DNA from: Mesoflavibacter sp.
Lineage (GTDB): Bacteria; Pseudomonadota; Alphaproteobacteria; UBA8366; Aestuariispiraceae
DNA: 64,000 bases
Reading direction: 5' to 3'
Assembly (NCBI GenBank): GCA_017792345.1
Contig: CP051228.1
Location: 2,108,001-2,172,000, forward strand
The notes beneath the pieces are model-generated. The model was not told the origin of the DNA. It worked only from the letters and a program-made list of their open reading frames with translations, and did no database searches. Below, in pieces: positions 9,366 to 49,584 of the stretch. Within the stretch, counting starts at the first letter, position 1; the number at the start of each line of letters is the position of its first letter. The position numbers were made by a program, and so were the translations under genes.

Positions 9366-9394
9366 TGATCCGAACCCCATTGCGCCGCGTATCG
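9366..9394 (+). promoter_or_regulatory. ECF-sigma-like promoter for the DUF6134 / FeS-photolyase operon
   Basis: TGATCC (9366-9371), a 16-base spacer, then CGTATCG (9388-9394). The same pair occurs at 19749-19777 with identical spacing, and in a near-identical form at 19686-19715. The predicted transcript start is near 9400, 29 bases before the ATG at 9429. A TGATC-type -35 recalls the RpoE-ChrR (ECF11) promoters of Rhodobacter; that comparison is from memory. The motif sits 10 bases from the PHO box of the divergent phoX gene. Confidence 0.6.
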
Positions 9395-12396: not shown

Positions 12397-12852
12397 ATGG
12401 GCGACGGGACACTGTTGGACGCGACGCGGCGTTGGGCCGAAGCCTTTGCGGCGCCGATGCCCGAAGGGCTGGAACCGCTGCTGGCGCTGGCCAGCGACGA
12501 CATCCGGTTCACGGACCCGTTCAACGATGTTGCCGGTAAGGCCGGCCTGCGCGCGATTCTGGAGGACATGACCGAGCGGTGCCGCGAGGCCCGCTTTACC
12601 ATCCTGGACGTCGCGGCGTCCGAACGGGCGGGTTATATTCGGTGGCGGTTCGATTGCGTTCCGCGCGGGCGGGGCCGGTCGGAATGGTGCTTCGAAGGGA
12701 TGAGCGAGATCCACCTGAATGCCGCCGGGAAGGTTTCGGTGCATGCCGATCATTGGGACAGTGCGACCCAGCTTTACGCCAAGCTGCCGGTCGTCGGCTG
12801 GCCGCTGCGCCGCATTCGGGCCGCGCTGACGGTCACTCCGCCGCCTGAGTGA
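12397..12852 (+). CDS. NTF2-like / SnoaL-like domain protein
   Basis: The 151-residue protein has a single alpha+beta cone domain. Family-like features are LLALASDDIRFTDPFNDVAGKAGLRAILEDM near residues 27-57, RWRFDCVPRG in the central strand, and GKVSVHADHWD near 115. NTF2-like folds bind small hydrophobic molecules or act as isomerases and hydrolases; which applies here cannot be told. It is the last gene of the rightward operon, 13 bases after the SDR. Its 3' end overlaps the 3' end of the convergent DUF3833 gene by 20 bases, and no terminator lies between them. Confidence 0.75.
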   Translation: MGDGTLLDATRRWAEAFAAPMPEGLEPLLALASDDIRFTDPFNDVAGKAGLRAILEDMTERCREARFTILDVAASERAGYIRWRFDCVPRGRGRSEWCFEGMSEIHLNAAGKVSVHADHWDSATQLYAKLPVVGWPLRRIRAALTVTPPPE

Positions 12853-13411
12853 CCTGTTCCTGACCGGCCTGCGCGGACGCCACCGGTTTGCTGAACGAAA
12901 TCACGGCCGTGCCCAGCTCGATACCCCATTTGGAAACGGTGGCGCGGTTGATGACCGTGCCGTTCGGCTGCAGGAACATCCAGTCGTCGAAGGCGACCCG
13001 CAGCGTCCGATCCTTCATTTTCAGATCGAACGTGTATTCCCAATGGAACGCGTTTCCGGCGATCTCGCCGCGCGCCAGGCCAATGACGCCGTCGGCATGG
13101 CCTTCGTATCTGTTCTCCCCAACCCGTGTCAGGGTCCAGACACGCCGTTCGGTCTCGCCATCGTCATAGACGAAATCCTCGACCAGGGTCAGGCGGTCGC
13201 CCTCCACCGTGCCTTCGATATCGACCACGAACTGCCGGCGCACGTCGCCGAACCGGTCGTAGAAGATGCCGGACGCCTCTGTCTTGCCGGCAAAGAACTG
13301 TTCCAGCTCAAACTTCGGCTCTTGCTTCTCGAAATCCGATATTTTCATCCCGCTACATCCCATCAATGCCAGCAGCGCCAGAACCGCTGCCCAGGACTTG
13401 CCAAATCTCAT
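12833..13411 (-). CDS. DUF3833-family lipoprotein
   Basis: The product is 192 residues from ATG 13411; a longer GTG reading adds arginine-rich residues before the signal. A type II signal peptide ends in a lipobox (LLALMGC-SG), so the mature protein should be a lipid-anchored envelope protein. The body (FFAGKTEASGIFYDRFGDVRRQF, then VWTLTRVGENRYEGHADGV) matches DUF3833. Its start codon overlaps the stop of the MFS gene (ATGA). DUF3833 genes commonly accompany CFA-type methyltransferase, DUF1365 and FAD-oxidoreductase genes, as here. Function is unknown; lipid binding or transfer at the envelope is a guess. Confidence 0.85.
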   Translation of the reverse strand: MRFGKSWAAVLALLALMGCSGMKISDFEKQEPKFELEQFFAGKTEASGIFYDRFGDVRRQFVVDIEGTVEGDRLTLVEDFVYDDGETERRVWTLTRVGENRYEGHADGVIGLARGEIAGNAFHWEYTFDLKMKDRTLRVAFDDWMFLQPNGTVINRATVSKWGIELGTAVISFSKPVASAQAGQEQVTQAAE

Positions 13412-14748
13412 CCAACCGACCCTTCGATACGGGCGCGCAAGCCGCCCTGTTCTTCGGCGTTCAGCGGAAACCGCCACATCAGGGCGATCGCCGCCGCTTT
13501 GAAGGCGATGGGCACCGCCCCGTAGAGCAGCGCCAGAACCAGCGCACCTTCATTCGACCCTGCCGGGCCGGCTGTGCCTTCCGTGTCGAGACCCACCGCT
13601 TCCAGAACCGGAAAGGCGATCCCGACCGCCAGCGCCAGGGCCAGCTTTGTCGCCATGCCCCATAGGGCGAAGTAGATCCCGGTCTTTGCCGGGCCGCCCT
13701 GGGCCGTGTCGACATCCACGGCATCGGCCTGCATCGAGGGGGGCAGCGCCAGATCCGCGGCCAGCGCCAGCCCTGTCCCGACGCAAAGCGCCAGATAGAG
13801 CGTGTCGTCGCCCGGTCCCAGAAAGGGCGCGAGGGCAAACCAGGCACAGGCCCAGATCATGGCGATGCACCACGCACGGTGCTTGCCGATCCGTGCGGCG
13901 ATCCAAAGCCATAAGGGCAGCCCCGCGATCGCCATCAGGAAATACGTTGCCAGGAAGGTTCCGGATTTCTCGGGTTGGCCAAGAATGACGCCGACATAGA
14001 GCAAAAACAGCGTGGCGGGCAGGCCGTTGGCTATTCCGTTCAGGATCCATGCCGCCAACAGCCGCACGAAGGGCTTGTTCCGGACCATCCGGCGCAGGTC
14101 TTCCCGCCAAGCCGGCGGCGGGACGCGGACCGTGATGGGCGGGTCGGCCAGGAACAGCAGCGCCGGGGCCACCGCCAACGGCAATCCCACCGCCAGGACC
14201 AGACCGACCGTGGCCAGCGCGTCGGTGCGCGTTTCCGGCGATCCGGCGGCGGCGACGAGGCCGCCGGCGACCAGGGTGCCCAGCACCACGAATCCTTCCC
14301 GCCAGGCGGCGATACGGTTGCGCTGCGCGTAATCGCCCGACAGTTCCGCCCCCCAGGCCTGATAGGGCAACATGACCAGCGTCCAGCCGAGATGGAGGAT
14401 CAAACCCGCTATCAGCAGATGGCCCAAGCCCGCGTCGACAGGCGGCCGGAACATCATCCAGCCGCCCACGACGGCGACCGGCAATCCGATGGCGACCCAT
14501 AGCTTTCGGCGGCCGAAACGGGTGCCGATCCGGTCGGACAGCATGCCGACCAGCGGGTCGGTGACGACGTCCCACAGGCGCATTGCCAGGACCACAAGTC
14601 CAACGGCGGCGAGGCCCAGACCCAGATCGACCGCGTAGAAGTTCGGGATATGGATATAAAGCGGCAGGGTGACCGCCGCGAGCGGCAGCCCGGGCAAGCC
14701 GTAGAGGATCAGCGATCGCAGCCCGATCGCCGGATTGCGCGACGACAT
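13408..14748 (-). CDS. MFS transporter, GPH sugar-cation symporter type
   Basis: A 446-residue membrane protein with about 12 hydrophobic helices. The loop after helix 2 (MRLWDVVTDPLVGMLSDRIGTRFGRRK) is the characteristic GPH/MelB signature, including the Asp and Arg residues. It sits 14 bases after the CFA-like methyltransferase gene and overlaps the DUF3833 gene by four bases, so it belongs to the leftward operon. GPH-type transporters recur in this conserved cluster in other alphaproteobacteria. The real substrate is unknown and may be a lipid precursor or head group rather than a sugar. Confidence 0.87.
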   Translation of the reverse strand: MSSRNPAIGLRSLILYGLPGLPLAAVTLPLYIHIPNFYAVDLGLGLAAVGLVVLAMRLWDVVTDPLVGMLSDRIGTRFGRRKLWVAIGLPVAVVGGWMMFRPPVDAGLGHLLIAGLILHLGWTLVMLPYQAWGAELSGDYAQRNRIAAWREGFVVLGTLVAGGLVAAAGSPETRTDALATVGLVLAVGLPLAVAPALLFLADPPITVRVPPPAWREDLRRMVRNKPFVRLLAAWILNGIANGLPATLFLLYVGVILGQPEKSGTFLATYFLMAIAGLPLWLWIAARIGKHRAWCIAMIWACAWFALAPFLGPGDDTLYLALCVGTGLALAADLALPPSMQADAVDVDTAQGGPAKTGIYFALWGMATKLALALAVGIAFPVLEAVGLDTEGTAGPAGSNEGALVLALLYGAVPIAFKAAAIALMWRFPLNAEEQGGLRARIEGSVG

Positions 14749-14761
14749 GACGGGACCCGCC

Positions 14762-16000
14762 TTAGACCCGGGCCAAGGTCACGCGTTTGACGTCGATATT
14801 GTCCGCCCGGAAACCGGCCTCGCAATAGGCCAGGTAATATTCCCACATCCGCTTGAACCGGGTATCGAAACCCTGGGCGCGGATGTCGTCCCAGGCGGCC
14901 TGGAACCGGTTGTTCCATTCCGCCAGCGTCCTGGCATAGGACAGGCCGAACCCTTCGCTGGAAATCTGCGTCAGGCCGGCCTTCTCGGCGCTCTGCCGCA
15001 GGGCAGTCGGCGAAGGCAGCATGCCGCCCGGGAAGATGTAGCGCTGGATGAAATCAGGGCGGCTTCGGTAATTGTCGAAATGCTTGTCGGCAATCGAGAT
15101 GATCTGCAGCGCGGCGCGCCCCCCCTCGGTCAGCCGGTCGCGCAGGGTCTCGAAGAAGACCGGCCAGTATTTTTCGCCGACCGCCTCGAACATCTCGATG
15201 GACGCGATCCCGTCGAACCGGCCTTCCAGATCGCGATAATCGACCAGGCGGATGTCGACCTTCTCGTTCAGGCCCTCGCGCTGCATGCGCGCTTTGGCGT
15301 AGTCGTGCTGTTCGCGAGAGATGGTGATGCCGGTGACATGGGCGCCGCGCTCCTTGGCGACGCGTTCGGCGAATCCGCCCCAACCGCAGCCGATCTCCAG
15401 GATGCGGGCATCCGGACCCATTTGCAGGCGGTCCGCCAGCAGGTCGTACTTCAACGCCTGGGCGCTGGTCAGGTCGGGTGTCTTCTCCGCGAACTGGGCC
15501 GATGAATACGTCATGCTGGGGTCCAGCCAGCGTTCGTAGAACGCGTTCCCCAGATCGTAATGATGGGCGATATTCCGGCGGCTGCCCTCGCGGGAATTGC
15601 GGTTCAATGTCTTGTGGATCAGGCGGTTGGCCGTGCGGTACAGCAAGCTGCCGTTCAGCGTCTCGTCCAGGGCCTCATAGTTCATTGCCCCGACCGTCAG
15701 GAAATCCGCCAGATTGGGGCTGTCCCAATCGCCGTCCATATAGCTTTCGCCCAGGCCGACATTACCGCCCAGGATCATGCGGCGGATGAACCGGTTGTTG
15801 CGTACGACCAAGCGGCCGACCGGTCCCGGTTCCTGGCCACCGAACCGGCGCGTCACCCCTTCCGGCACGGTGATCTCGAACGTGCCGAAGCGAATCCGCT
15901 CGGCGATCGCGAAAGTCATCCGGCTGGCAAGGGACAGACGGGGTATGCCGTTCTCCGTTTCCATTTCCATAAAGGCGGTGCTGCGGTCGATATCGGTCAT
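14762..16000 (-). CDS. Cyclopropane-fatty-acyl-phospholipid synthase-like SAM methyltransferase
   Basis: The product is 412 residues from ATG 16000; the longer reading to 16027 would use TTG. The SAM-binding motif is ILEIGCGWGGFAERVAKERG. SIEMFEAVGEKYWPVFF and QRYIFPGGMLPSPTALRQS are family signatures, and the N-terminal domain has the RFGTFEITVPEG segment. The family methylates or cyclopropanates unsaturated acyl chains of membrane phospholipids at the double bond. In Rhodobacter, a relative in the singlet-oxygen regulon takes part in methylated and furan fatty acid synthesis, so either cyclopropane or methyl/furan lipid products are possible. Confidence 0.88.
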   Translation of the reverse strand: MTDIDRSTAFMEMETENGIPRLSLASRMTFAIAERIRFGTFEITVPEGVTRRFGGQEPGPVGRLVVRNNRFIRRMILGGNVGLGESYMDGDWDSPNLADFLTVGAMNYEALDETLNGSLLYRTANRLIHKTLNRNSREGSRRNIAHHYDLGNAFYERWLDPSMTYSSAQFAEKTPDLTSAQALKYDLLADRLQMGPDARILEIGCGWGGFAERVAKERGAHVTGITISREQHDYAKARMQREGLNEKVDIRLVDYRDLEGRFDGIASIEMFEAVGEKYWPVFFETLRDRLTEGGRAALQIISIADKHFDNYRSRPDFIQRYIFPGGMLPSPTALRQSAEKAGLTQISSEGFGLSYARTLAEWNNRFQAAWDDIRAQGFDTRFKRMWEYYLAYCEAGFRADNIDVKRVTLARV

Positions 16001-16044
16001 GGGATCACCGGTCTGTTTCGCTGTCAATTGTCAGTCACGCGGCA

Positions 16045-16818
16045 TCAGCGCGTGACATGGGCCGCCGGACGGGGCGGTTTGGAATGGAAACGCGCGCCTT
16101 TCAGCCATAGCCGCAGGGCTTCCCAGTGGATGCCGGCCACGACCTTGGCGGTCATCAAGGGATGCCGCGCGATGGCGGTGGCGATCGCGCGATCCGTCAG
16201 ATCCCGGCCGCGGCCGGTATGGCGCGCCATCAAAAGCGGCGCGTCGGATGAATCCGACTGCCGGATCTGAATTGCCAGCCGGTCGTCCGGCGGGCGGACC
16301 GCGAAGCGATAGCGGCAATCCATTTCCAGAAAGGGCGACACATGGAAGACCTTGCGGGTCTCCTGACGGACAGTCTCGTCCCCCGTTTCTTCGACCGGGA
16401 TCAGATAGCCGTGCGATTCGCCGAATGTGTTCGAGACCTCATAAAGGATCGCGCGCAGCGCCCCGTCATGTCCGTAGCAGAAATGCAGGGACAGCGGATT
16501 GAAGGCATACCCCCAGAGGCGCGGGAAGGTCAGAAGCCGCAGCGGAGCGCCGCGCAGGTTGATGCCCTGGGCATGCAGCGCTTCTTCGACCCAGGACCGG
16601 ATGGTCGATCCGTCACGGCGCCCGTAATCGCGGTCGTGCAGGCTGACCGGCGCCCAGCGGTTATGCCCGAACAGCCGGAGGGTTCCGTCCATTTCCGCCA
16701 GCCGGTCCGGATCGACCAGTATGGAGAAGACGGAATAGCTCAATTCATGCACGACCGGTTTCAGGCGCTTGTGCATCACCTTGCCGAAATAGAGCGTGGC
16801 TTCGGGCGGGCCGCTCAT
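16045..16818 (-). CDS. DUF1365-family protein
   Basis: A 257-residue protein beginning SGPPEATLYFGKVMHKR, with the family blocks LVDPDRLAEMD, LTFPRLWGYAFNPLSLHFCYG and KVFHVSPFLEMDCRYRF. DUF1365 has no settled biochemical function but is nearly always adjacent to an FAD oxidoreductase and a CFA-type methyltransferase, as here. Its ATG overlaps the stop of the FAD-oxidoreductase gene (ATGA), which suggests the two products are made in step. Participation in the same lipid-modification pathway is inferred from this conserved linkage. Confidence 0.88.
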   Translation of the reverse strand: MSGPPEATLYFGKVMHKRLKPVVHELSYSVFSILVDPDRLAEMDGTLRLFGHNRWAPVSLHDRDYGRRDGSTIRSWVEEALHAQGINLRGAPLRLLTFPRLWGYAFNPLSLHFCYGHDGALRAILYEVSNTFGESHGYLIPVEETGDETVRQETRKVFHVSPFLEMDCRYRFAVRPPDDRLAIQIRQSDSSDAPLLMARHTGRGRDLTDRAIATAIARHPLMTAKVVAGIHWEALRLWLKGARFHSKPPRPAAHVTR

Positions 16819-18179
16819 GCCGCTGCCTCGATTTGCGCATCACGGACGGTGCGCGGCCTGGGCAGTGTCTCGGTATCTCGCAGGACGGCGCGCATCGCGT
16901 GGACCGGGCGATGTCCCCAAGGCGCTTCGACGCCCAGGGCGCGCGCGACCGCAACGGCGGAGCCTAGCCCGTCCTCGTGAAAGCCATAGCCGCAATAGCT
17001 GCCGCAGAACCAGACCCCGCCGGCGCCCTGGATGTCGGGCAGCTGGGTTTGGGCCGCCATGGCACCATGGTCGAAGACCGGATGATCATAGTCGAATTCG
17101 GCGACGACCCGGTCGGCTGCGATGTCGCGCAGGGGATTCAACGTCACGAACAGCGGATGCGCCGGGTCCAGCGATTGCAGATTGTTCATCCAGTAGGAGA
17201 CGGACACGCGGCTTTCGGACTGGGCGTTGCCGCGCTCTGTCAGATAATTCCAACTGGACCATACCTTCTGCCGGATCGGCATCTGGCCCGGGTCGCTGTG
17301 CAGGATCGCCTTGTTCCTCTGATATCCAAACCGGGACAGGATCGACGCCTCGCGCGCCGATTGATCCGAAAGCAGGGCGGCGGCCTCGTCGCCGTGGCAG
17401 GCGAAGACGACCTGGTCATAGTGTGCGCTATCGCCATCGGCCAAATGGACGGTGACGCCCTCCGGTCCCCGCTGGACGGCGCGGACGCCGCAGCCGGTGC
17501 GGATGTCGCTCGCCAGTCCTAGTCGCAGACGCTCGACATAGCTGCGGCTGCCGTTCTTCACCGTCCACCATTGCGGCCGGTCGTTGACCTGCAACAGGCC
17601 ATGATTGTCAAAGAAGCGGATGAAACTGGCGGCCGGGAAGGCCCCCATCGTACTGACCGGGCAGGACCAGATCGCGGCAGCCATCGGCAGCAGATGATCG
17701 TCGATGAAGCTTTGCGAATAGCCGTCACGCTTCAGCAGGTCGTCCAGCGTCAGTTGGGCGCAACCGTCGTTCGCCAGAAGATCCGGTGCGGCTTTATAGA
17801 AGCGCAGGATGTCGCGGATCATCCGAAGGAAGCGGGGCGAGACGAGATTGCGCTTCTGCGCGAACAGGCTGCGCAGGTCGCTGCCGCCATATTCCAGGCG
17901 GCCGCCATCGGCGGAGACGGCGAAGGACATGTCGGTCTTGATCCGCGCCACGCCCAGCGTGTCCAGCAGGCCGATCAGGTTCGGATAGGTCCGTTCGTTA
18001 TAGACGATGAACCCTGTGTCGACCGGAATGCTGCCGCCGCCTTCAATGGGCACGTCCACGGTATTGGAATGGCCGCCGGCATAGGCGTTCCGCTCATAAA
18101 CCGTGACATTGTGTCGGCGGGACAGAAGCCAGGCCGCCCCCAGCCCGGCGATGCCGCTTCCGATAACTGCAATCTTCAT
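16815..18179 (-). CDS. FAD-dependent oxidoreductase (amine-oxidase-like)
   Basis: A 454-residue flavoprotein. The dinucleotide-binding motif MKIAVIGSGIAGLGAAWLL opens the protein, followed by VYERNAYAGGHSNTV; a second FAD contact near the C-terminus is GVWFCGSYCGYGFHEDGLGS. It lies 3 bases after the photolyase stop and overlaps DUF1365. Members of this family in CFA/DUF1365 clusters are thought to oxidise or desaturate fatty acyl groups after methylation. It could correspond to the desaturase-like step in furan fatty acid synthesis, but this is inference from gene order. Confidence 0.88.
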   Translation of the reverse strand: MKIAVIGSGIAGLGAAWLLSRRHNVTVYERNAYAGGHSNTVDVPIEGGGSIPVDTGFIVYNERTYPNLIGLLDTLGVARIKTDMSFAVSADGGRLEYGGSDLRSLFAQKRNLVSPRFLRMIRDILRFYKAAPDLLANDGCAQLTLDDLLKRDGYSQSFIDDHLLPMAAAIWSCPVSTMGAFPAASFIRFFDNHGLLQVNDRPQWWTVKNGSRSYVERLRLGLASDIRTGCGVRAVQRGPEGVTVHLADGDSAHYDQVVFACHGDEAAALLSDQSAREASILSRFGYQRNKAILHSDPGQMPIRQKVWSSWNYLTERGNAQSESRVSVSYWMNNLQSLDPAHPLFVTLNPLRDIAADRVVAEFDYDHPVFDHGAMAAQTQLPDIQGAGGVWFCGSYCGYGFHEDGLGSAVAVARALGVEAPWGHRPVHAMRAVLRDTETLPRPRTVRDAQIEAAA

Positions 18180-18182
18180 GGT

Positions 18183-19625
18183 TCAAGCCGCCCCTTTGAT
18201 TTCATCATATGCGTTCAAGGCCCGCTCCCGTGCGCGGCGATGATCGACGATCGGTTTTGGATAGGTCCGCCCCAATGTGATCCCGGCGTCTTCCAGGACA
18301 CCGTTCGGCGCGGTCCAGGGTTCGTTCAGATGCTTGTCGGGCAGGGCGGCGATTTCCGGGATCCAACGGCGGATATAGGCGCCCTTCGGGTCGAACTTTT
18401 CGCCCTGACCGATTGGATTGAAAATTCGGAAATAGGGCGCCGCATCCGCGCCGCAGCCCGCGACCCATTGCCAGTTCGCGACATTGTTGGCCAGATCGGC
18501 GTCGACCAGCGTGTCCCGGAACCAGGGTTCGCCGCACCGCCAGTCGATCATCAGATGCTTGATCAGGAAGGATGCGGCGACCATGCGGACGCGGTTATGC
18601 ATGAATCCGGTATGCCACAGCTCACGCATGCCGGCGTCGACCAGGGGATAGCCCGTACGGCCCTTCTGCCACGCCTTCAGGGCACTGTCGTCGTCGTGCC
18701 AGGGAAAGTCGTCGAACTTGCCGTTGTAATTCTCCGACGGCAGGCGCGGATTGTTGAACAGAAGATTGTGGTTGAAGTCCCGCCAACCGATCTCGCGCAG
18801 GAAGGACCAGATGCCCGATTCCGACGCGGCACCCCGGCGGCGCGCGGTGTCCCGGGCGATGTGCCAGATTTCTCGGGGGCTGATCTCCCCGAAAGCCAGG
18901 TGCGGGCTGAGCCGCGACGTGCCGTCCAGATCGGGGCGGTTCCGGCGGTCGCCATAGCCGCTGACGCCGTCATCCAGAAAATCGGCGAGCCTCGCCCGCG
19001 CGCCCGCTTCACCCGGCTGCCAGCTTTCCCGAAGGCCGCCGGCCCAATCGGGTTTCGTCGGCAACAGCGCCCAATTTTCCAGGGCCTCACCGTCGGCGGC
19101 CAGACCCGGAATCACGGTCGGGGCAGGGACGGGCGCGGGCGGGTCGCCCCGCGCGCAGGATGCCTTCCAGAATGGCGTGAAGACGCCATAAGGCCCGCCG
19201 GTCTTGGTTTTGACCTCCCATGGTTCGTTCAGCAGCGTGCCGTTGAAGCTGTCGACAGTGACCCCATCCTCTGTCAGGGCGGATTTCAACGCCGTGTCCC
19301 GCGCGACGGCCGCCGGTTCGTAGCAGCGGTTCCAGTATACGGCCTCGATCTCGAGGCTGTCGCAGAGGGCGGGGATGATGTCCGCCGGGTCGCCGGATTT
19401 CAGAATCAACGCGCCGCCCCGATCCGCGATATCGTCGGCCAGGGCAGCCAAGCTGTGATGCAGCCACCAGGCCGAAGCCCCGCCGACGGGCAGCGCCCCT
19501 TCGGACACGTCATCCCGCACGAACACACAGGCGACCGGGCCGCCGCGACGGATCGCGGCATCCAATGCGGGATTGTCTGAAAGGCGAAGGTCCTTGCGAA
19601 ACCAAACGAGACTGGGGCCGGTCAT
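18183..19625 (-). CDS. phrB: Deoxyribodipyrimidine photolyase (class I CPD type)
   Basis: The product has 480 residues from ATG 19625, which has GGGAG just upstream. The N-terminal antenna domain opens with SLVWFRKDLRLSDNPAL. The FAD-binding C-terminal domain carries the strongly conserved segments LREIGWRDFNHN, GRTGYPLVDAGMRELWHTG, HNRVRMVAASFLIKHL and ANNVANWQWVAGCGADAAPYFRIFNP. It repairs cyclobutane pyrimidine dimers with light. It is the first gene of the six-gene leftward operon and has an ECF-like promoter 61 bases upstream. With the FeS photolyase at 10096 the organism appears to cover both main UV lesions. Confidence 0.95.
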   Translation of the reverse strand: MTGPSLVWFRKDLRLSDNPALDAAIRRGGPVACVFVRDDVSEGALPVGGASAWWLHHSLAALADDIADRGGALILKSGDPADIIPALCDSLEIEAVYWNRCYEPAAVARDTALKSALTEDGVTVDSFNGTLLNEPWEVKTKTGGPYGVFTPFWKASCARGDPPAPVPAPTVIPGLAADGEALENWALLPTKPDWAGGLRESWQPGEAGARARLADFLDDGVSGYGDRRNRPDLDGTSRLSPHLAFGEISPREIWHIARDTARRRGAASESGIWSFLREIGWRDFNHNLLFNNPRLPSENYNGKFDDFPWHDDDSALKAWQKGRTGYPLVDAGMRELWHTGFMHNRVRMVAASFLIKHLMIDWRCGEPWFRDTLVDADLANNVANWQWVAGCGADAAPYFRIFNPIGQGEKFDPKGAYIRRWIPEIAALPDKHLNEPWTAPNGVLEDAGITLGRTYPKPIVDHRRARERALNAYDEIKGAA

Positions 19626-19685
19626 GAACGCTCCCAAAGGGGTCGGCGAAACGGATCGCCGGACAATTTATCGCGGCGTGTAAAA

Positions 19686-19715
19686 CGATACGCGATACCG
19701 GTTCCGTTTGGATTA
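19686..19715 (-). promoter_or_regulatory. ECF-sigma-like promoter for the photolyase / CFA operon
   Basis: On the minus strand: TAATCC (19715-19710), 17 bases, CGTATCG (19692-19686). It differs from the other two copies by one base in the -35 and one base in spacing. The predicted transcript start is near 19680, giving a 5' leader of about 55 bases before the photolyase ATG. It lies back to back with the promoter at 19749-19777. Confidence 0.55.
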
Positions 19716-19748
19716 CGCCCCGGGGTCAAATTTTTTTGCCTTCCGAAA

Positions 19749-19777
19749 TGATCCGACCGCCGGTGGCAGGCGTATCG
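19749..19777 (+). promoter_or_regulatory. ECF-sigma-like promoter driving a candidate small RNA
   Basis: TGATCC (19749-19754), a 16-base spacer, CGTATCG (19771-19777). The -35, spacing and -10 are identical to the copy at 9366-9394, and the base after TGATCC is also G-A in both. It points right, but the only gene in that direction (pdeM) is on the other strand, so it has no protein gene to serve. Confidence 0.6.
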
Positions 19778-19782
19778 ACTAT

Positions 19783-19883
19783 GCATTCCGGGACCGCCGG
19801 AATGTCGACGGTAGACCCCTCCCCCCACATCTACCGATGGCACGGATGGGCCGGAGCACTTCGCTTCGGCCCATTTCGTTTTT
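19783..19883 (+). ncRNA. Candidate stress-induced small RNA (about 100 nt)
   Basis: The stretch begins about 6 bases after a -10-like CGTATCG and ends in an intrinsic terminator, with no credible reading frame. It folds into three hairpins. Hairpin 1: CATTCCGG (19784-19791) with CCGGAATG (19797-19804), loop of 5. Hairpin 2: CGGTAGA (19809-19815) with TCTACCG (19830-19836), displaying the 14-base loop CCCCTCCCCCCACA. Hairpin 3 is the terminator stem. The C-rich loop is complementary to purine-rich Shine-Dalgarno sequences, as in the CUCC-loop sRNAs known from alphaproteobacteria. Target identity is not known. All pairings were read directly from the sequence; transcription is inferred. Confidence 0.6.
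19846..19883 (+). terminator. Intrinsic terminator of the candidate small RNA
   Basis: ATGGGCCGGAGC (19846-19857) pairs with GCTTCGGCCCAT (19863-19874) over 12 bp with one G-T wobble and a 5-base loop, followed by TTCGTTTTT. The T-tract exists only in the rightward direction, so it does not serve the leftward pdeM gene 13 bases further on. Confidence 0.85.
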
Positions 19884-19895
19884 GCTGGATTCGTA

Positions 19896-20585
19896 TCAGG
19901 CGGCTTTCCTCAATCGAGATCGCGGTACGCGCAGGACACCCTGGCGCAGCGCCAGATGGACGGTGAAGCCTTTCGGGAACAGGCCGGAAATCGCCGTGTC
20001 CCACACACTGAGCCCACCCGTATAGGCGCCGAAAGCGGGCAGGATCAGGCGTCGGGAATCCTCCACGAAGCACCGGGCGGACAGGCGTCGGGCGCGGGTT
20101 TCGATAGCGGCCTTGGGATGGAAATGCCCGGAGATTTCGCCTGCCCCGGCCTGGGGTGACGCTTCGTGCCGGAAGACCAGCGGACCGTCGACCACTTCCT
20201 CCAGCACGATACCGCCCAGATCGGCGGGTGGGGCGGGGTCGTGGTTGCCGGCGATCCAGACCCAATCGCACTGCCGAGTCAGGCCGACCAACTGGTCGCG
20301 GTCCTGGGGCGTCAGCCGCGCGGCAGCCCGGATGTCATGAAAACTGTCGCCCAGGCAGATAACGCGTTTCGGCCGGGTCGCCGCCATCGCCTGCCGGAGG
20401 GCCGTCAGGGTCGCGCGGCTGTCATAGGGGGGCAGCATCTGGCCCGTCGCCGAGGCGAAGGCGGACCCTTTCTCCAGATGCAGATCGGCGACGATCAACG
20501 TCTCGCGATCCGGCCAGTACAGCGCGCCGTCGGACCGCGCATGCAGCATCGCGCCGTTCAGGGGAAAGGGACTATCCAAGGACAT
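19896..20585 (-). CDS. pdeM: Ligase-associated DNA damage response endonuclease PdeM
   Basis: A 229-residue calcineurin-like metallophosphoesterase. Metal-binding motifs are in order: LIVADLHLEKGSAFA (D-x-H), ICLGDSFHDIRA (GD), VWIAGNHDPAP (GNHD) and ISGHFHPKA (GHxH). This set defines the PdeM family that is encoded with a ligase, an exonuclease and an Lhr-type helicase in a DNA repair cassette. It starts 7 bases after the helicase stop, so the two form an operon. The usual ligase and exonuclease partners are not in the window; the next leftward unit is the candidate small RNA and the photolyase operon. Confidence 0.9.
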   Translation of the reverse strand: MSLDSPFPLNGAMLHARSDGALYWPDRETLIVADLHLEKGSAFASATGQMLPPYDSRATLTALRQAMAATRPKRVICLGDSFHDIRAAARLTPQDRDQLVGLTRQCDWVWIAGNHDPAPPADLGGIVLEEVVDGPLVFRHEASPQAGAGEISGHFHPKAAIETRARRLSARCFVEDSRRLILPAFGAYTGGLSVWDTAISGLFPKGFTVHLALRQGVLRVPRSRLRKAA

Positions 20586-20591
20586 GAGGAT

Positions 20592-23039
20592 TTATAGCGG
20601 GAGTCCGCCCTGAGGGTCCATATGCATCGCCTCGTCGATCAGTTCCTGCGCCAACTCGTCGAACAACTGGTCCTCCGCGTCGCCATAGACGGCCTCCTTC
20701 CCGACCTCCAGCAGGATCGGGACGGCCAGGGGCGATACCCGGTCCAGGCGGCGGTGGCGGATGCCCTGTTTCGCGCGGCGCAGAAACTCAGCCAGGCGTT
20801 CGACATCGATCATCCCGGTGCGCGCATCCGCCCGGGTCGCGCGCAGCAGCACATGGTTCGGCTCGTGACGGCGCAGCACGTCGTAAATCAGGTCGGAATT
20901 GAAGGTGACTTGCCTGCCGGTCTTCTCCTGACCCGGCTGGCGGCGCTCGATCAGCCCGGCAATCACGGCGACATTGCGGAAGGTTCGACGCATCAGGGAG
21001 CTTTCTTCCATCCACGCCTCCAGGTCGTCACCCAGCATGTCCTCGTCGAACAGGGATTCCATGTCCTTCGCCGGATGCAGGCTCCAAACCGCGATCACAT
21101 AATCGCTGGCGACGAATCCCAGGGGCGCCAGTCCCATCCGCTCCATCCGCCGGGTCAGCAGCATGCCCAGGGTCTGATGCGCATTGCGGCCCGCGAAACT
21201 GTAGGCGACCAGATATTCCTTGCCGCCGCGCGGGAAGGTTTCGACCAGCAATCCGTCCGGTCCGGGCAGGACCGAGCGCCATTGCTGCAGGCGCAGCCAT
21301 TCATGCACCTGATCCGGCAGCCCTTGCCAGGAGGCCGGGTCTGACAAGGCTTCGCGCACCCGCTCCGACAGATGCGTCGTGAACGGCATGCGCCCGCCCA
21401 TATAGGACGGGACTTTCGGGTCGCCGCCGCGCGCCGGCGTCACCTCGACGGCCGTCTGCTTGATCCCCTCGTAACGCAGCAAGCGGCCGGCGAAGACGAA
21501 TGTGTCGCCCGGCTCCATCATGGTGACGAAGTATTCCTCGATCTCGCCGAGCGTCCCGCCGCCGCCGCGCATCCGCACCTTGAGGGTCACCGCCTCAACA
21601 ATGGTGCCGATATTCATCCGGTGGCGATGGGCCAGCTTGGGATTGGCGACCTCATAGGTGCCCGCCGCTGTGTGAAACAGCTTCTTCCAGCGGTCGTAAC
21701 TCTGCAGGGCATAGCCCCCATCCGCCACGAACCGCAGGACATCGTCGAAGGTCGCGCGGTCTAGATTGCGATAGGGTTCGGCCCGGACGATCTCCGCATG
21801 GATCTCGTCGGGGCGAAGCGGCGCCGCGCAGGCCAGCGACATGATATGTTGCGCCAGGACGTCCAGCCCGCCGTCGCGCGGCGGATCGCCGTCCAATGTG
21901 CCCTGGTCGACCCCATCGATGGCGCAGCGGCATTCCAGCACCTCGAACCGGTTGCAGGGCACCAGAAGCGCGCGGCTGGGCACGTCCAGCCGGTGACCGG
22001 CCCGGCCAATCCGCTGAATCAGGCGGGACACACCTTTGGGCGGGCCGACCTGGACCACCAGATCGACCGCCGCCCAGTCGATGCCCAGATCCAGGGATGA
22101 GGTCGCGACCACGGCGCGCAGGCTGCCGGCGGCCATCGCCGCCTCGACCTTGCGCCGCTGTTCCCTGGCCAGCGACCCGTGATGCAGGGCGATGGGCAGT
22201 GCGTCTTCATTCGCGTGCCACAGCGCCTGGAACAGCAATTCCGCCTGCGCCCGCGTGTTGACGAAGACGATCGCCGTGCCGGTTTTCTTTATTTCCTCGT
22301 AGATTTCCGGGACGGCATGCAGCCCGTAATGACCGGACCAGGGCAGGCGTTCCTTGGTGTCCAGAATGCGGATATCGGCCCGTTTGGCGCCGCCCCCCTT
22401 TATCACCGGCACGCTGTCCGGATCGGCATCGGGCGCGATATAGGCGCGCAGAGCCTCCGGCCAGGCGACCGTGGCGGACAGGCCGATCCGCTTCACCCCC
22501 GGCGCGATGGCCGACAGGCGGGCGAGGCACAGGGAGAGATGATCGCCGCGTTTGGTCCCGACCAGGGCGTGGGTCTCGTCGACGACGATCCGTTTCAGGG
22601 AGGCGAAGAAGTCGAAACTGTCCGGTGACGCGATCAGCAGGGCGAGAGATTCCGGTGTCGTCAGCAGGATTTGCGGCGGGGCTTCTCGCTGGCGCTTGCG
22701 CCGGTTGGCCGGCGTGTCGCCGGTCCGTGTCTCAATGCGGATATCCAGCCCCATCTCCTCGACCGGCAGGGTCAGATTGCGCTGAATGTCGACCGCCAGC
22801 GCCTTCAGGGGGGAGATGTAGATGGTATGGATGCCTTCGGTCGGATTCTCGGCCAGATCGATCAGGCTGGGCAGGAACCCGGCCAGGGTCTTCCCGCCGC
22901 CGGTCGGTGCGATCAGCAGCGCATGGTCGCCGCGCCGGTCGGCCGCCAGCATATCCATCTGGTGCGGATGCGGCGCCCAGCCGCGGCTGGCGAACCAGTC
23001 GGCGAAGCGGGCGGGAATGGGTGCGGGAAGGTCGTTCAT
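20592..23039 (-). CDS. Ligase-associated DEXH-box helicase (Lhr family)
   Basis: The product is 815 residues from ATG 23039; a longer open frame to 23165 adds 42 residues unlike the family. Walker A is LIAPTGGGKTLAGFLPSL, the DEXH box is RIVVDETHALVGTKRGDH, motif III is IGLSATVAWPEA, and motif VI is GVSRLIQRIGRAGHRLD. A winged-helix region and the long Lhr C-terminal domain follow (EEYFVTMMEPGDTFVFAGRLLRYEG). It is predicted to be a 3'-5' ATP-dependent helicase or translocase in DNA repair, acting with PdeM encoded next to it. An inverted repeat GTTCTT-N13-AAGAAC (23120-23144) lies upstream. Confidence 0.92.
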   Translation of the reverse strand: MNDLPAPIPARFADWFASRGWAPHPHQMDMLAADRRGDHALLIAPTGGGKTLAGFLPSLIDLAENPTEGIHTIYISPLKALAVDIQRNLTLPVEEMGLDIRIETRTGDTPANRRKRQREAPPQILLTTPESLALLIASPDSFDFFASLKRIVVDETHALVGTKRGDHLSLCLARLSAIAPGVKRIGLSATVAWPEALRAYIAPDADPDSVPVIKGGGAKRADIRILDTKERLPWSGHYGLHAVPEIYEEIKKTGTAIVFVNTRAQAELLFQALWHANEDALPIALHHGSLAREQRRKVEAAMAAGSLRAVVATSSLDLGIDWAAVDLVVQVGPPKGVSRLIQRIGRAGHRLDVPSRALLVPCNRFEVLECRCAIDGVDQGTLDGDPPRDGGLDVLAQHIMSLACAAPLRPDEIHAEIVRAEPYRNLDRATFDDVLRFVADGGYALQSYDRWKKLFHTAAGTYEVANPKLAHRHRMNIGTIVEAVTLKVRMRGGGGTLGEIEEYFVTMMEPGDTFVFAGRLLRYEGIKQTAVEVTPARGGDPKVPSYMGGRMPFTTHLSERVREALSDPASWQGLPDQVHEWLRLQQWRSVLPGPDGLLVETFPRGGKEYLVAYSFAGRNAHQTLGMLLTRRMERMGLAPLGFVASDYVIAVWSLHPAKDMESLFDEDMLGDDLEAWMEESSLMRRTFRNVAVIAGLIERRQPGQEKTGRQVTFNSDLIYDVLRRHEPNHVLLRATRADARTGMIDVERLAEFLRRAKQGIRHRRLDRVSPLAVPILLEVGKEAVYGDAEDQLFDELAQELIDEAMHMDPQGGLPL

Positions 23040-23258
23040 GGTCCGGCAGAGTATAGCGCCGCCGCCGGTCCCGGCGAGACCGGACATCGGCCGTTGCGTT
23101 GTTTCGGCTGTGAAACGAAGTTCTTGCGGGAGTTTAGGAAGAACCCTTAAGGGCCTAACCAACAAATAAAAATCGAGTTGGTGACAAGCGAATCCGAATC
23201 GCTGTACCTCCGATTTACAGCCCGGGTCTTCTGGCGAACCTGCCCGGGTGGAGGAACC

Positions 23259-49005: not shown

Positions 49006-49584
49006 ATGAAGAAGATTGTTTTGTCGCTGGGCCTGACGGCTCTCTTGCTGATGGCGGGATGTGCCAAGCAATTCGTACAGGTCGATCCCAGCACGCAGCA
49101 ATTCGGCCCGGTATCCTTCACCACCGCTCAGCCCTGGAACAAGGTGGATATCAATGCCGATCATTCGATGTGGACCGTGGACGGCCTGACCCTGAACACC
49201 CTGGAACTGACGGGGAATGTCGGGAAGGGGAAACGCCTTTTCGGCAGCGCGAAGACGATCAAGGGTCCGCAATTCGACCCGTCCATGAGCCTGCCCGAAC
49301 AATCGGAATTCCTTCTGGCGTCGCTGCGTGCGGACGGGTTGCCGAATGCCGAAATCTTCGGTCTGGAGGCCTTCCGAATTGGCGAGATCGACGCCTTCAC
49401 GGTCTATTTCGGCGGCGAGAACGAGGACGGTCTGGATACGCTAGGCCTCGCGGTGGGTTTCGTTCACGACGAGGCATTCCATGCCATCATCTACCGGGCG
49501 GCCAGCGAACATTACTATGAAAAGCTGCTGCCGGAAGTCACCGGGATCATCGAAAGCCTGAAGTCGAACGAGGTGTCGACCTAA
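49006..49584 (+). CDS. Lipoprotein of unknown function
   Basis: The product has 192 residues from ATG 49006, which has a strong GGAGGGG upstream; the frame is open from 48946 but the earlier part lacks a signal. The lipobox is LLLMAGC-AK at about residue 16. The mature domain is beta-rich (FGPVSFTTAQPWNKVDINADHSMWTVDGL, FRIGEIDAFTVYFGGENEDGLDTLGLAVGFVHDEAFHAIIYR). No family is recognised. It follows the M48 gene and converges on rlmB: the two stop codons overlap within 49581-49584. Confidence 0.75.
   Translation: MKKIVLSLGLTALLLMAGCAKQFVQVDPSTQQFGPVSFTTAQPWNKVDINADHSMWTVDGLTLNTLELTGNVGKGKRLFGSAKTIKGPQFDPSMSLPEQSEFLLASLRADGLPNAEIFGLEAFRIGEIDAFTVYFGGENEDGLDTLGLAVGFVHDEAFHAIIYRAASEHYYEKLLPEVTGIIESLKSNEVST

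Follow-up and report, generated by a model that had tools for sequence, protein, structure and literature searches.

The window, i.e., the 64,000-nucleotide stretch of DNA that was analysed, contains a DNA photolyase gene, which heads a cluster of genes oriented leftward, and the pdeM gene, which encodes a ligase-associated DNA damage response endonuclease (Table 1). Since the photolyase gene points leftward and pdeM approaches from the right, a transcript running rightward from the region between them would sit there alone. It would be convergent to pdeM, the stop codon of which is located 12 bases past the terminator tail. Together with a DEXH helicase gene, pdeM constitutes a ligase-associated DNA damage response pair (window positions 19896-23165) adjoining the photolyase cluster.

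In this region, a preliminary description, made from the sequence alone, had placed a candidate small RNA (sRNA) under the control of an ECF sigma factor. All of its elements, i.e., the promoter motif, the two hairpins, the loop and the terminator, were found at the positions that had been given for them. The accompanying statement that no started reading frame lies inside is correct for the window copy, but open frames at 19736-19966 and 19708-20025 cross the terminator.

Table 1. Positions of the candidate sRNA, its neighbors and related elements (window coordinates, except for the last line)
Feature	Position	Strand	Basis or detail
Promoter motif, second exact copy, before DUF6134 gene (PF19630)	9366..9394	+	
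Remaining divergent cluster, putative operon	13408..18179	-	FAD amine oxidase-like, DUF1365, CFA-synthase-like, GPH-type transporter-like
DNA photolyase, first gene of divergent cluster	18183..19637 (longest ORF)	-	PF00875, PF03441
Divergent ECF11-like promoter facing photolyase, TAATCC-N17-CGTATCG	19686..19715	-	Motif search
Promoter of ECF11 (RpoE-ChrR) type, TGATCC-N16-CGTATCG	19749..19777	+	TGATCC at 19749-19754, CGTATCG at 19771-19777
Candidate sRNA transcript, ~100 nt	19781..19883	+	Start placed from the -10 element, end from the terminator
Hairpin 1	19783..19805	+	CATTCCGG/CCGGAATG, 19784-19791 with 19797-19804, plus one outer G-U pair
Hairpin 2	19809..19836	+	CGGTAGA/TCTACCG, 19809-19815 with 19830-19836
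Hairpin-2 loop of 14 bases, CCCCTCCCCCCACA, presumed seed	19816..19829	+	Conservation, predicted unpaired
Intrinsic terminator	19846..19883	+	12-bp stem (19846-19857 with 19863-19874, one G-U), 5-nt loop, then TTCGTTTTT at 19875-19883
pdeM, ligase-associated DNA damage response endonuclease	19896..20585	-	TIGR04123, 229 bits vs. cut-off of 150
Second three-hairpin RNA candidate	L283 711-823, L284 721-834	minus strand of loci	Pattern search and folding

Structure, conservation and distribution

The fold of 107 nt has a z-score of -4.9, and none of 200 shuffled sequences folded as well. The terminator supplies most of this score: the segment 19783-19851 alone gave a z-score of -1.05, and hairpin 2 was not formed there because a partial terminator arm was included. 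Nor does a C-rich loop on a perfect stem, taken alone, exceed what chance would give. One among the 242 perfect 7-bp stems in the window carries such a loop, and 7 of 20 block-shuffled windows contained at least one. The case for an sRNA rests on conservation and covariation.

When the 14 genomes of the window's family were searched by BLASTN, clear matches besides the window itself were found only in G012 and G008; of the other, short matches, the one that was read (L004) lies in coding-like sequence. BLASTN against plasmids gave no match. Homologs of the photolyase gene supplied two more loci with the sRNA (L039 and L040). A covariance model built from four copies (R1) matched 11 of 43 genomes of the order; seven matches were strong, all of them within the family. 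The copy in G013 (Pacificispira spongiicola; Rhodospirillales) obtained a weak R1 score but is real by synteny. The pdeM gene was found in 12 of the 14 family genomes, and searching its neighborhood exposed diverged copies of the sRNA in G005 and G006. In total, 10 of the 14 genomes carry the sRNA, always between photolyase and pdeM and with the photolyase gene adjoining in all cases. When 11 loci of 40 kb were searched with filters off, the ten copies scored 30.8-97.7 bits and anything else at most 18.6 bits. The covariance-model search that had been suggested as a check did reveal homologous copies. In G004, photolyase and pdeM are both present at the locus, without a model match or a rightward promoter motif. 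No pdeM match was found in G001 and G003, where a later model, R2, matched at E-values of 0.65-0.76 only, and G002 possesses pdeM, with no photolyase in the locus (L214) and no ChrR match.

Over the ten copies, which are mutually related and all from one family, 99.5% of 187 pair cells hold standard pairs and 13 of 19 pairs have changed on both sides; in controls with slid partners, these values were 25-49% and 0-3 pairs, respectively. For seven copies, 99.2% of 133 pair cells were standard, with two-sided changes in 11 of 19 pairs (slid partners, 23-46%). Since both alignments had been guided by a model of the same structure, the pair counts lean towards that structure; four copies aligned by plain MAFFT, before any model, however, already displayed compensating changes both in hairpin 2 and in the terminator. 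The number of pair types was not above that in shuffles, as 262 of 500 shuffles for the seven copies and 104 of 500 for the ten copies were as high. Over the ten copies, the two-sided changes affect five of the seven pairs in hairpin 2 and eight of the 12 pairs in the terminator. The sequence of hairpin 1 is not conserved, and the hairpin itself is predicted in nine of the ten copies and is missing in G013. The U-tract is weak or absent in at least G007, G010, and G013.

Mean pairwise identity over the ten copies amounts to 0.91 in the C-rich core (0.96 without G013) and 0.83 in the whole loop, vs. 0.62 in the terminator stem, 0.55 in the stem of hairpin 2, and 0.44 in both the spacer and the 5' part with hairpin 1. 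The hairpin-2 loop is predicted to be unpaired in all copies, with probabilities of 0.93-1.0. Thus, the alignment displays a conserved, exposed loop on drifting and compensating stems, which is the reverse of the pattern named in the preliminary description as speaking against an sRNA, i.e., a loop and stems that drift freely while the terminator alone is conserved. Selection appears to act on the letters of the loop and on the pairing of the stems, not on the letters of the stems. No ORF is shared among the ten copies; of ORFs that close within the examined stretch, and thus not counting frames running off it, those of at least 8 amino acids were found only in G010 and G013, and these are mutually unrelated. 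With ten copies in 14 genomes, covariation and a conserved loop, the proposal of an sRNA gene is well sustained.

Several weak matches outside the family were rejected. The R1 match in G030 (L093) has no TGATCC within 84 upstream bases and adjoins a gene that looks ClpA-like by eye, and those in G024 (L095) and G038 (L096) sit after gene ends. Models R2 and R3, each searched against 385 genomes of the class, matched 14 and 22 genomes, respectively, three of which in either case are known members (G000, G010, and G012). Of the 11 other places for R2 and the 21 for R3, none combined the motif with a C-rich loop, and almost all of them are simply hairpins of terminators. Among these outside matches, the best one (L257 in G276, 37.5 bits) has CCTTCCCCC directly behind an apparent gene end, without the motif. 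Thus, no further member was found in the 385 class genomes with R2 and R3 under strict filters. Because of these filters, members outside the family may have been missed: the copies in G005 and G006 reached just 33.5 and 32.1 bits, respectively, even with filters off.

The ECF11-type promoter and its regulon

The motif recognized by RpoE was published as TGATCC(N15)GCGTA for Pos19 of Rhodobacter sphaeroides (PMC5036791). The promoter of the candidate sRNA, TGATCC-N16-CGTA, equals this motif, and its extended form as given in the preliminary description occurs twice in the window, vs. 0.01 times expected. In the whole genome, TGATCC-N16-CGTA was found at 8 sites vs. none for the reversed control; when the spacer was loosened to 15-17 nucleotides, these numbers were 17 and 2. 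One exact site precedes a sigma factor gene that is followed by chrR (TIGR02451, 216 bits vs. a cut-off of 124.5). These two genes are rpoE-chrR, and the genome encodes RpoE together with ChrR. Another exact site precedes a second sigma factor gene, the product of which contains regions 2, 3, and 4 (L033) and is probably of the RpoH type. Further exact sites are located before the DUF6134 gene, a DUF4864 gene, the sRNA, and a gene resembling that for riboflavin synthase by eye, and two of the eight sites are copies of one locus. In these two copies (L031 and L038, at ~49,000 and ~4,898,000 of G000:C1, near both contig ends), the motif is accompanied by an ORF that looks phosphoglycerate mutase-like by eye; they differ in sequence beyond the shared part and appear to represent a duplicated stretch. 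The DUF4864 gene (L032) is a possible further member of the regulon.

Reported targets of RpoE include the genes for photolyase and CfaS, rpoE-chrR, and rpoHII, and genes for fatty-acid modification are among the reported targets of RpoE-ChrR (PMC7074977; PMC6852236). The leftward cluster in the window contains gene types of this published regulon, i.e., photolyase, FAD amine oxidase-like, DUF1365, and CFA-synthase-like genes. The preliminary description had noted the same motif before the DUF6134/FeS-photolyase operon and had assumed joint induction with the photolyase and CFA operons; the motif was retrieved before the DUF6134 gene and on the side of the photolyase and CFA genes, there as TAATCC-N17-CGTATCG. 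The ECF control that it had proposed in general terms can be specified as that of the RpoE-ChrR/ECF11 type by the promoter motif and the company in which this motif is found in the genome.

The promoter arrangement is conserved together with the sRNA. All ten sRNA loci contain a rightward motif, T[GA]ATC[CT]-N16-CGTA, which starts with TGATCC in eight of them, with TGATCT in G005, and with TAATCC in G013. All ten also contain a leftward motif, with TAATCC in nine loci and TGATCC in G013. At the G004 locus, which has no sRNA, only the leftward motif on the photolyase side is present. ChrR was found above the curated cut-off in 13 of the 14 family genomes. By itself, the motif does not prove ECF11 control, because the one genome without a ChrR match, G002, has 23 sites vs. 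1 in the control (spacer of 15-17); moreover, with this spacer, control and motif counts are nearly equal in several genomes within the order. Among 47 loci with photolyase homologs, a motif facing photolyase was found in L040, L044, L046, L047, L052, and L062, and a strict pattern search retrieved divergent motifs combined with a C-rich loop only in L039, with a diverged form in L040. TGATCC-N16/17-CGTA faces the photolyase gene in loci of Pseudolabrys and Hyphomonas (L044, L046, L047, and L062) as well, so that photolyase may widely be under ECF11 control.

The oligo-C loop, possible targets and mode of action

The hairpin-2 loop reads CCCCUCCCCCC in the window and CCCCUCCCCCCC in G012; seven copies have CCUUCCCCCC(C), and G013 has a diverged form, ACUCCCCACC. 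The constant element is UCCCCCC, present in nine of the ten copies, within a conserved core CC[CT]TCCCCCC. The preliminary description had characterized the loop as anti-Shine-Dalgarno. A literal CCUCC inside the loop is found in two of the ten copies only, i.e., in the window and G012; G005 and G006 also have CCUCC, but within the paired 3' arm. Hence, the conserved seed is the oligo-C sequence rather than an anti-Shine-Dalgarno sequence. Its conservation, together with what is reported for GsrN, NfeR1, and PmaR, suggests that the oligo-C loop serves as the pairing seed for G-rich sites in mRNAs. Six tandem C residues in a loop of GsrN are reported to determine the choice of targets, and GsrN activates katG (PMC5869019), PmaR has a C-rich loop that is explicitly not anti-Shine-Dalgarno and activates most of its targets (PMC6234868), and the anti-Shine-Dalgarno seeds of NfeR1 (ar14), with CCUCCUCCC, silence ntrB (PMC10746234).

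As a possible target, the preliminary description had pointed to the ribosome-binding site GGAGGGG of the lipoprotein gene at 49006. In a loop-seeded prediction over 47 start regions of the window, for which ORFs and starts were chosen by a script, this gene indeed ranked first with -19.7 kcal/mol, but the regions at 12397 (-19.5) and 1636 (-19.4) were almost equal. An ortholog of the lipoprotein gene was not found in the loci examined, including nine stretches beside the sRNA in five relatives. In six genomes, the pattern GGGGGGARG-N2-9-ATG gave 42 sites vs. 18 in a reversed control; about half of the 42 start plausible genes by eye, and the highest number (11) was found in G004, which lacks the sRNA at the locus. 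The sole related pair among these sites consists of DUF2336 proteins of G006 and G008 with 36% identity, in the genes of which (L216 and L217) GGGGGGARG is located just before the start codon; the Pfam assignment was made on the G008 protein. These DUF2336 genes are possibly a shared target of the C-rich loop, although their recurrence may be due to chance. Overall, no target is established and none is conserved.

We consider the stretch 19781-19883 to be very probably a real, base-pairing small RNA with a promoter of the ECF11 type. It would be a trans-acting regulatory RNA of ~100 nt that belongs to the RpoE-ChrR (ECF11) regulon for singlet oxygen and peroxide. Upon release of RpoE by ChrR, the holoenzyme would transcribe the photolyase/fatty-acid-modification cluster leftward and the sRNA rightward. 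The latter is predicted, by folding and covariation, to form a 5' hairpin, a central hairpin exposing the oligo-C loop UCCCCCC, and an intrinsic terminator. The loop would then pair with target mRNAs at G-rich stretches of their leaders or ribosome-binding sites. We infer RpoE-dependent transcription, pairing with G-rich mRNA sites, and the inducing stress. Where a G-run overlaps the Shine-Dalgarno site, repression would be most likely, while a G-run within the leader may lead to stabilization or activation of the mRNA. For the main target, repression is rated a shade above even and activation correspondingly below. Repression is not a given, because published alphaproteobacterial sRNAs with C-rich loops, i.e., GsrN and PmaR, can activate.

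Two variants of this explanation differ in the action of the loop. As in the preliminary description, the RNA could act as a broad repressor of translation with a true anti-Shine-Dalgarno seed, like NfeR1/ar14, a variant that is plausible at somewhat less than even chances. It fits with the CCUCC in the loops of the window and G012, the first rank of the GGAGGGG at 49006, and the silencing of ntrB by ar14, but CCUCC is absent from the other eight loops, the conserved core is CC[CT]TCCCCCC, and neither the G-run pattern in six genomes nor the search for orthologs of the gene at 49006 yielded a conserved target. Alternatively, it could mainly activate or stabilize mRNAs through contact of the oligo-C sequence with G-runs in leaders, as GsrN does on katG. 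The precedents of GsrN and PmaR and the retention of UCCCCCC in nine copies argue for this variant, whereas GsrN depends on EcfG, the promoter here is of the ECF11 type, and no target is known within the family; it is kept as a tentative possibility with the chances leaning against it.

Other readings deny the loop its role as an mRNA seed or the region its regulatory RNA. A role of the oligo-C loop as protein decoy or as partner of another sRNA is improbable, albeit not without precedent, as CrfA of Caulobacter is reported to sponge the C/U-rich core of SisA-D and pairs of G-rich and C-rich sRNAs exist (PMC12559287). It is very unlikely that the region merely provides a terminator between convergent genes: the terminator is its most generic part and most of the weak class-wide model matches are ordinary terminator hairpins, but a rightward ECF11-type motif is present in all ten loci and was not found in G004, which lacks the RNA as well, and conservation is much higher in the core of the loop than in the terminator. 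Hardly credible is a small coding RNA comparable to Pos19, which belongs to the same regulon, has this type of promoter and encodes a peptide (PMC5036791). An ATG is located near the presumed 5' end in several copies of the sRNA; yet the few closing ORFs are unrelated, and what is conserved are the loop letters and the pairing.

A search for the ECF11 motif combined with a YTCCCC pattern in the 385 class genomes matched at least 125 genomes, and four places were read. In G238 and G330, which belong to another alphaproteobacterial genus, TGATCC-N16-CGTAACAG is followed by a stretch of ~113 nt that folds into three hairpins. Runs of C are fully unpaired in the loops of hairpin 2 (CCCCC or CCCC) and hairpin 3 (within CUCCCUCCCCC), and there is one compensating change in the third stem between the two related sequences. 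This second RNA precedes a gene that is aldo/keto reductase-like by eye. It scored 39.2 and 29.7 bits against Rfam family RF01798 'g2', below the cut-off of 70, and is unrelated to the sRNA between photolyase and pdeM. In the other two places, in G256 and G420 of one genus (L281 and L282), an ECF11-type motif is located before an SDR-like gene with a C-rich leader.

It is conceivable that the ECF11 responses to singlet oxygen in Alphaproteobacteria have repeatedly acquired a post-transcriptional arm of structurally conserved, ECF11-promoted oligo-C-loop RNA that re-tunes mRNAs with G-rich leaders genome-wide, independently of GsrN (EcfG) and NfeR1 (LsrB/NtrC) but with the same seed chemistry; in the window's family, this would be the sRNA divergent from the photolyase cluster. 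We give this convergence slightly less than an even chance, and it is retained because the second C-loop RNA stands behind an ECF11-type promoter in G238 and G330. If true, an RNA arm belongs in this lineage to the RpoE-ChrR response, for which mainly a cascade of transcriptional control has been described. This would also add to the cases in which different alphaproteobacterial stress sigma factors each control an sRNA that exposes an oligo-C loop, suggesting that they converged on a single way to read leaders rich in G. The ten natural variants and the G004 locus without the sRNA then constitute a test set for repression vs. activation by such loops.

Relation to known small RNAs

At the gathering cut-offs of Rfam, only four tRNAs were found in the window, and the sRNA has no family match. 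According to the preliminary description, no described family is known to match this three-hairpin arrangement, but ar14/NfeR1 of alpha-rhizobia (RF02344; 123 nt) has three hairpins with C/U-rich loops and, like the sRNA described here, an exposed C/U-rich motif and varying stems. The Rfam model for ar14 matched the window copy with 28.3 bits (E-value of 0.00085 in 221 bases), i.e., about half the gathering cut-off of 58.8, and there was no match among nine relatives over 29 kb at E-values up to 5, nor in two relatives that were searched again singly in 221 bases. In ar14, CCUCCUCCC is located in an unpaired region of all three hairpins and expression is controlled by LsrB/NtrC, whereas the promoter here is of the ECF11 type. 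The window sRNA has a single C-rich loop, CCCCUCCCCCCACA; the other two loops read GACCG and ACUUC. By the low score, its lack of recurrence in relatives, and the single C-rich loop, membership of ar14 was rejected.

GsrN of the Caulobacteraceae resembles the sRNA in its induction by an ECF stress sigma factor (sigma-T/EcfG), its six-C loop seed, and the conservation of that loop above the rest (PMC5869019). In the sRNA, an exposed loop of six C residues is likewise found, with UCCCCCC in nine of the ten copies and unpaired probabilities of 0.93-1.0. In contrast, GsrN depends on EcfG, and its homologs are typically located near sigT-phyR, with C. crescentus as an exception (PMC5869019), whereas here the promoter is of the ECF11 type and the neighbors are photolyase and pdeM in all ten loci. 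The C-loop of GsrN, compared by its description, is the 5' loop, whereas that of the sRNA is in the central hairpin. BLASTn homologs of GsrN are reported in Caulobacteraceae only, with candidates in Rhizobiaceae (PMC5869019), and no family of that name was among the Rfam matches listed.

Pos19 (RSs0019) of R. sphaeroides is also an sRNA of an RpoE-ChrR regulon with the same promoter, but it is 219 nt long, codes for a peptide, and lies between cxp and fadB (PMC5036791). As the sRNA is ~100 nt long, has no shared ORF, and has other neighbors, membership was rejected. In the open-access literature, as far as its available text goes, the RpoE-dependent sRNA found is the coding Pos19, and no C-loop sRNA without a coding function turned up for the RpoE-ChrR regulon. 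The ar8/SisA-D RNAs of Caulobacter share a conserved anti-Shine-Dalgarno-like C/U core, UUUCCUCCCU, and an intrinsic terminator, and their family is reported in Alphaproteobacteria except Rickettsiales (PMC12559287). Their core, however, is in a single-stranded stretch, not in a hairpin loop as here; they are usually linked to an N-formylglutamate amidohydrolase gene, and the four Caulobacter copies have no common promoter motif (PMC12559287). Both the UUUCCUCCCU core and the amidohydrolase linkage are absent here, and membership was rejected on account of the differing core and neighbors. PmaR of Agrobacterium tumefaciens likewise needs an accessible C-rich loop for target control, but has a spoon-like structure with one long stem and is induced in stationary phase (PMC6234868). 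Judged by these comparisons, the sRNA between photolyase and pdeM appears to represent a new RNA family, the kind of which is already known, i.e., that of the base-pairing, C-loop sRNAs driven by stress sigma factors.
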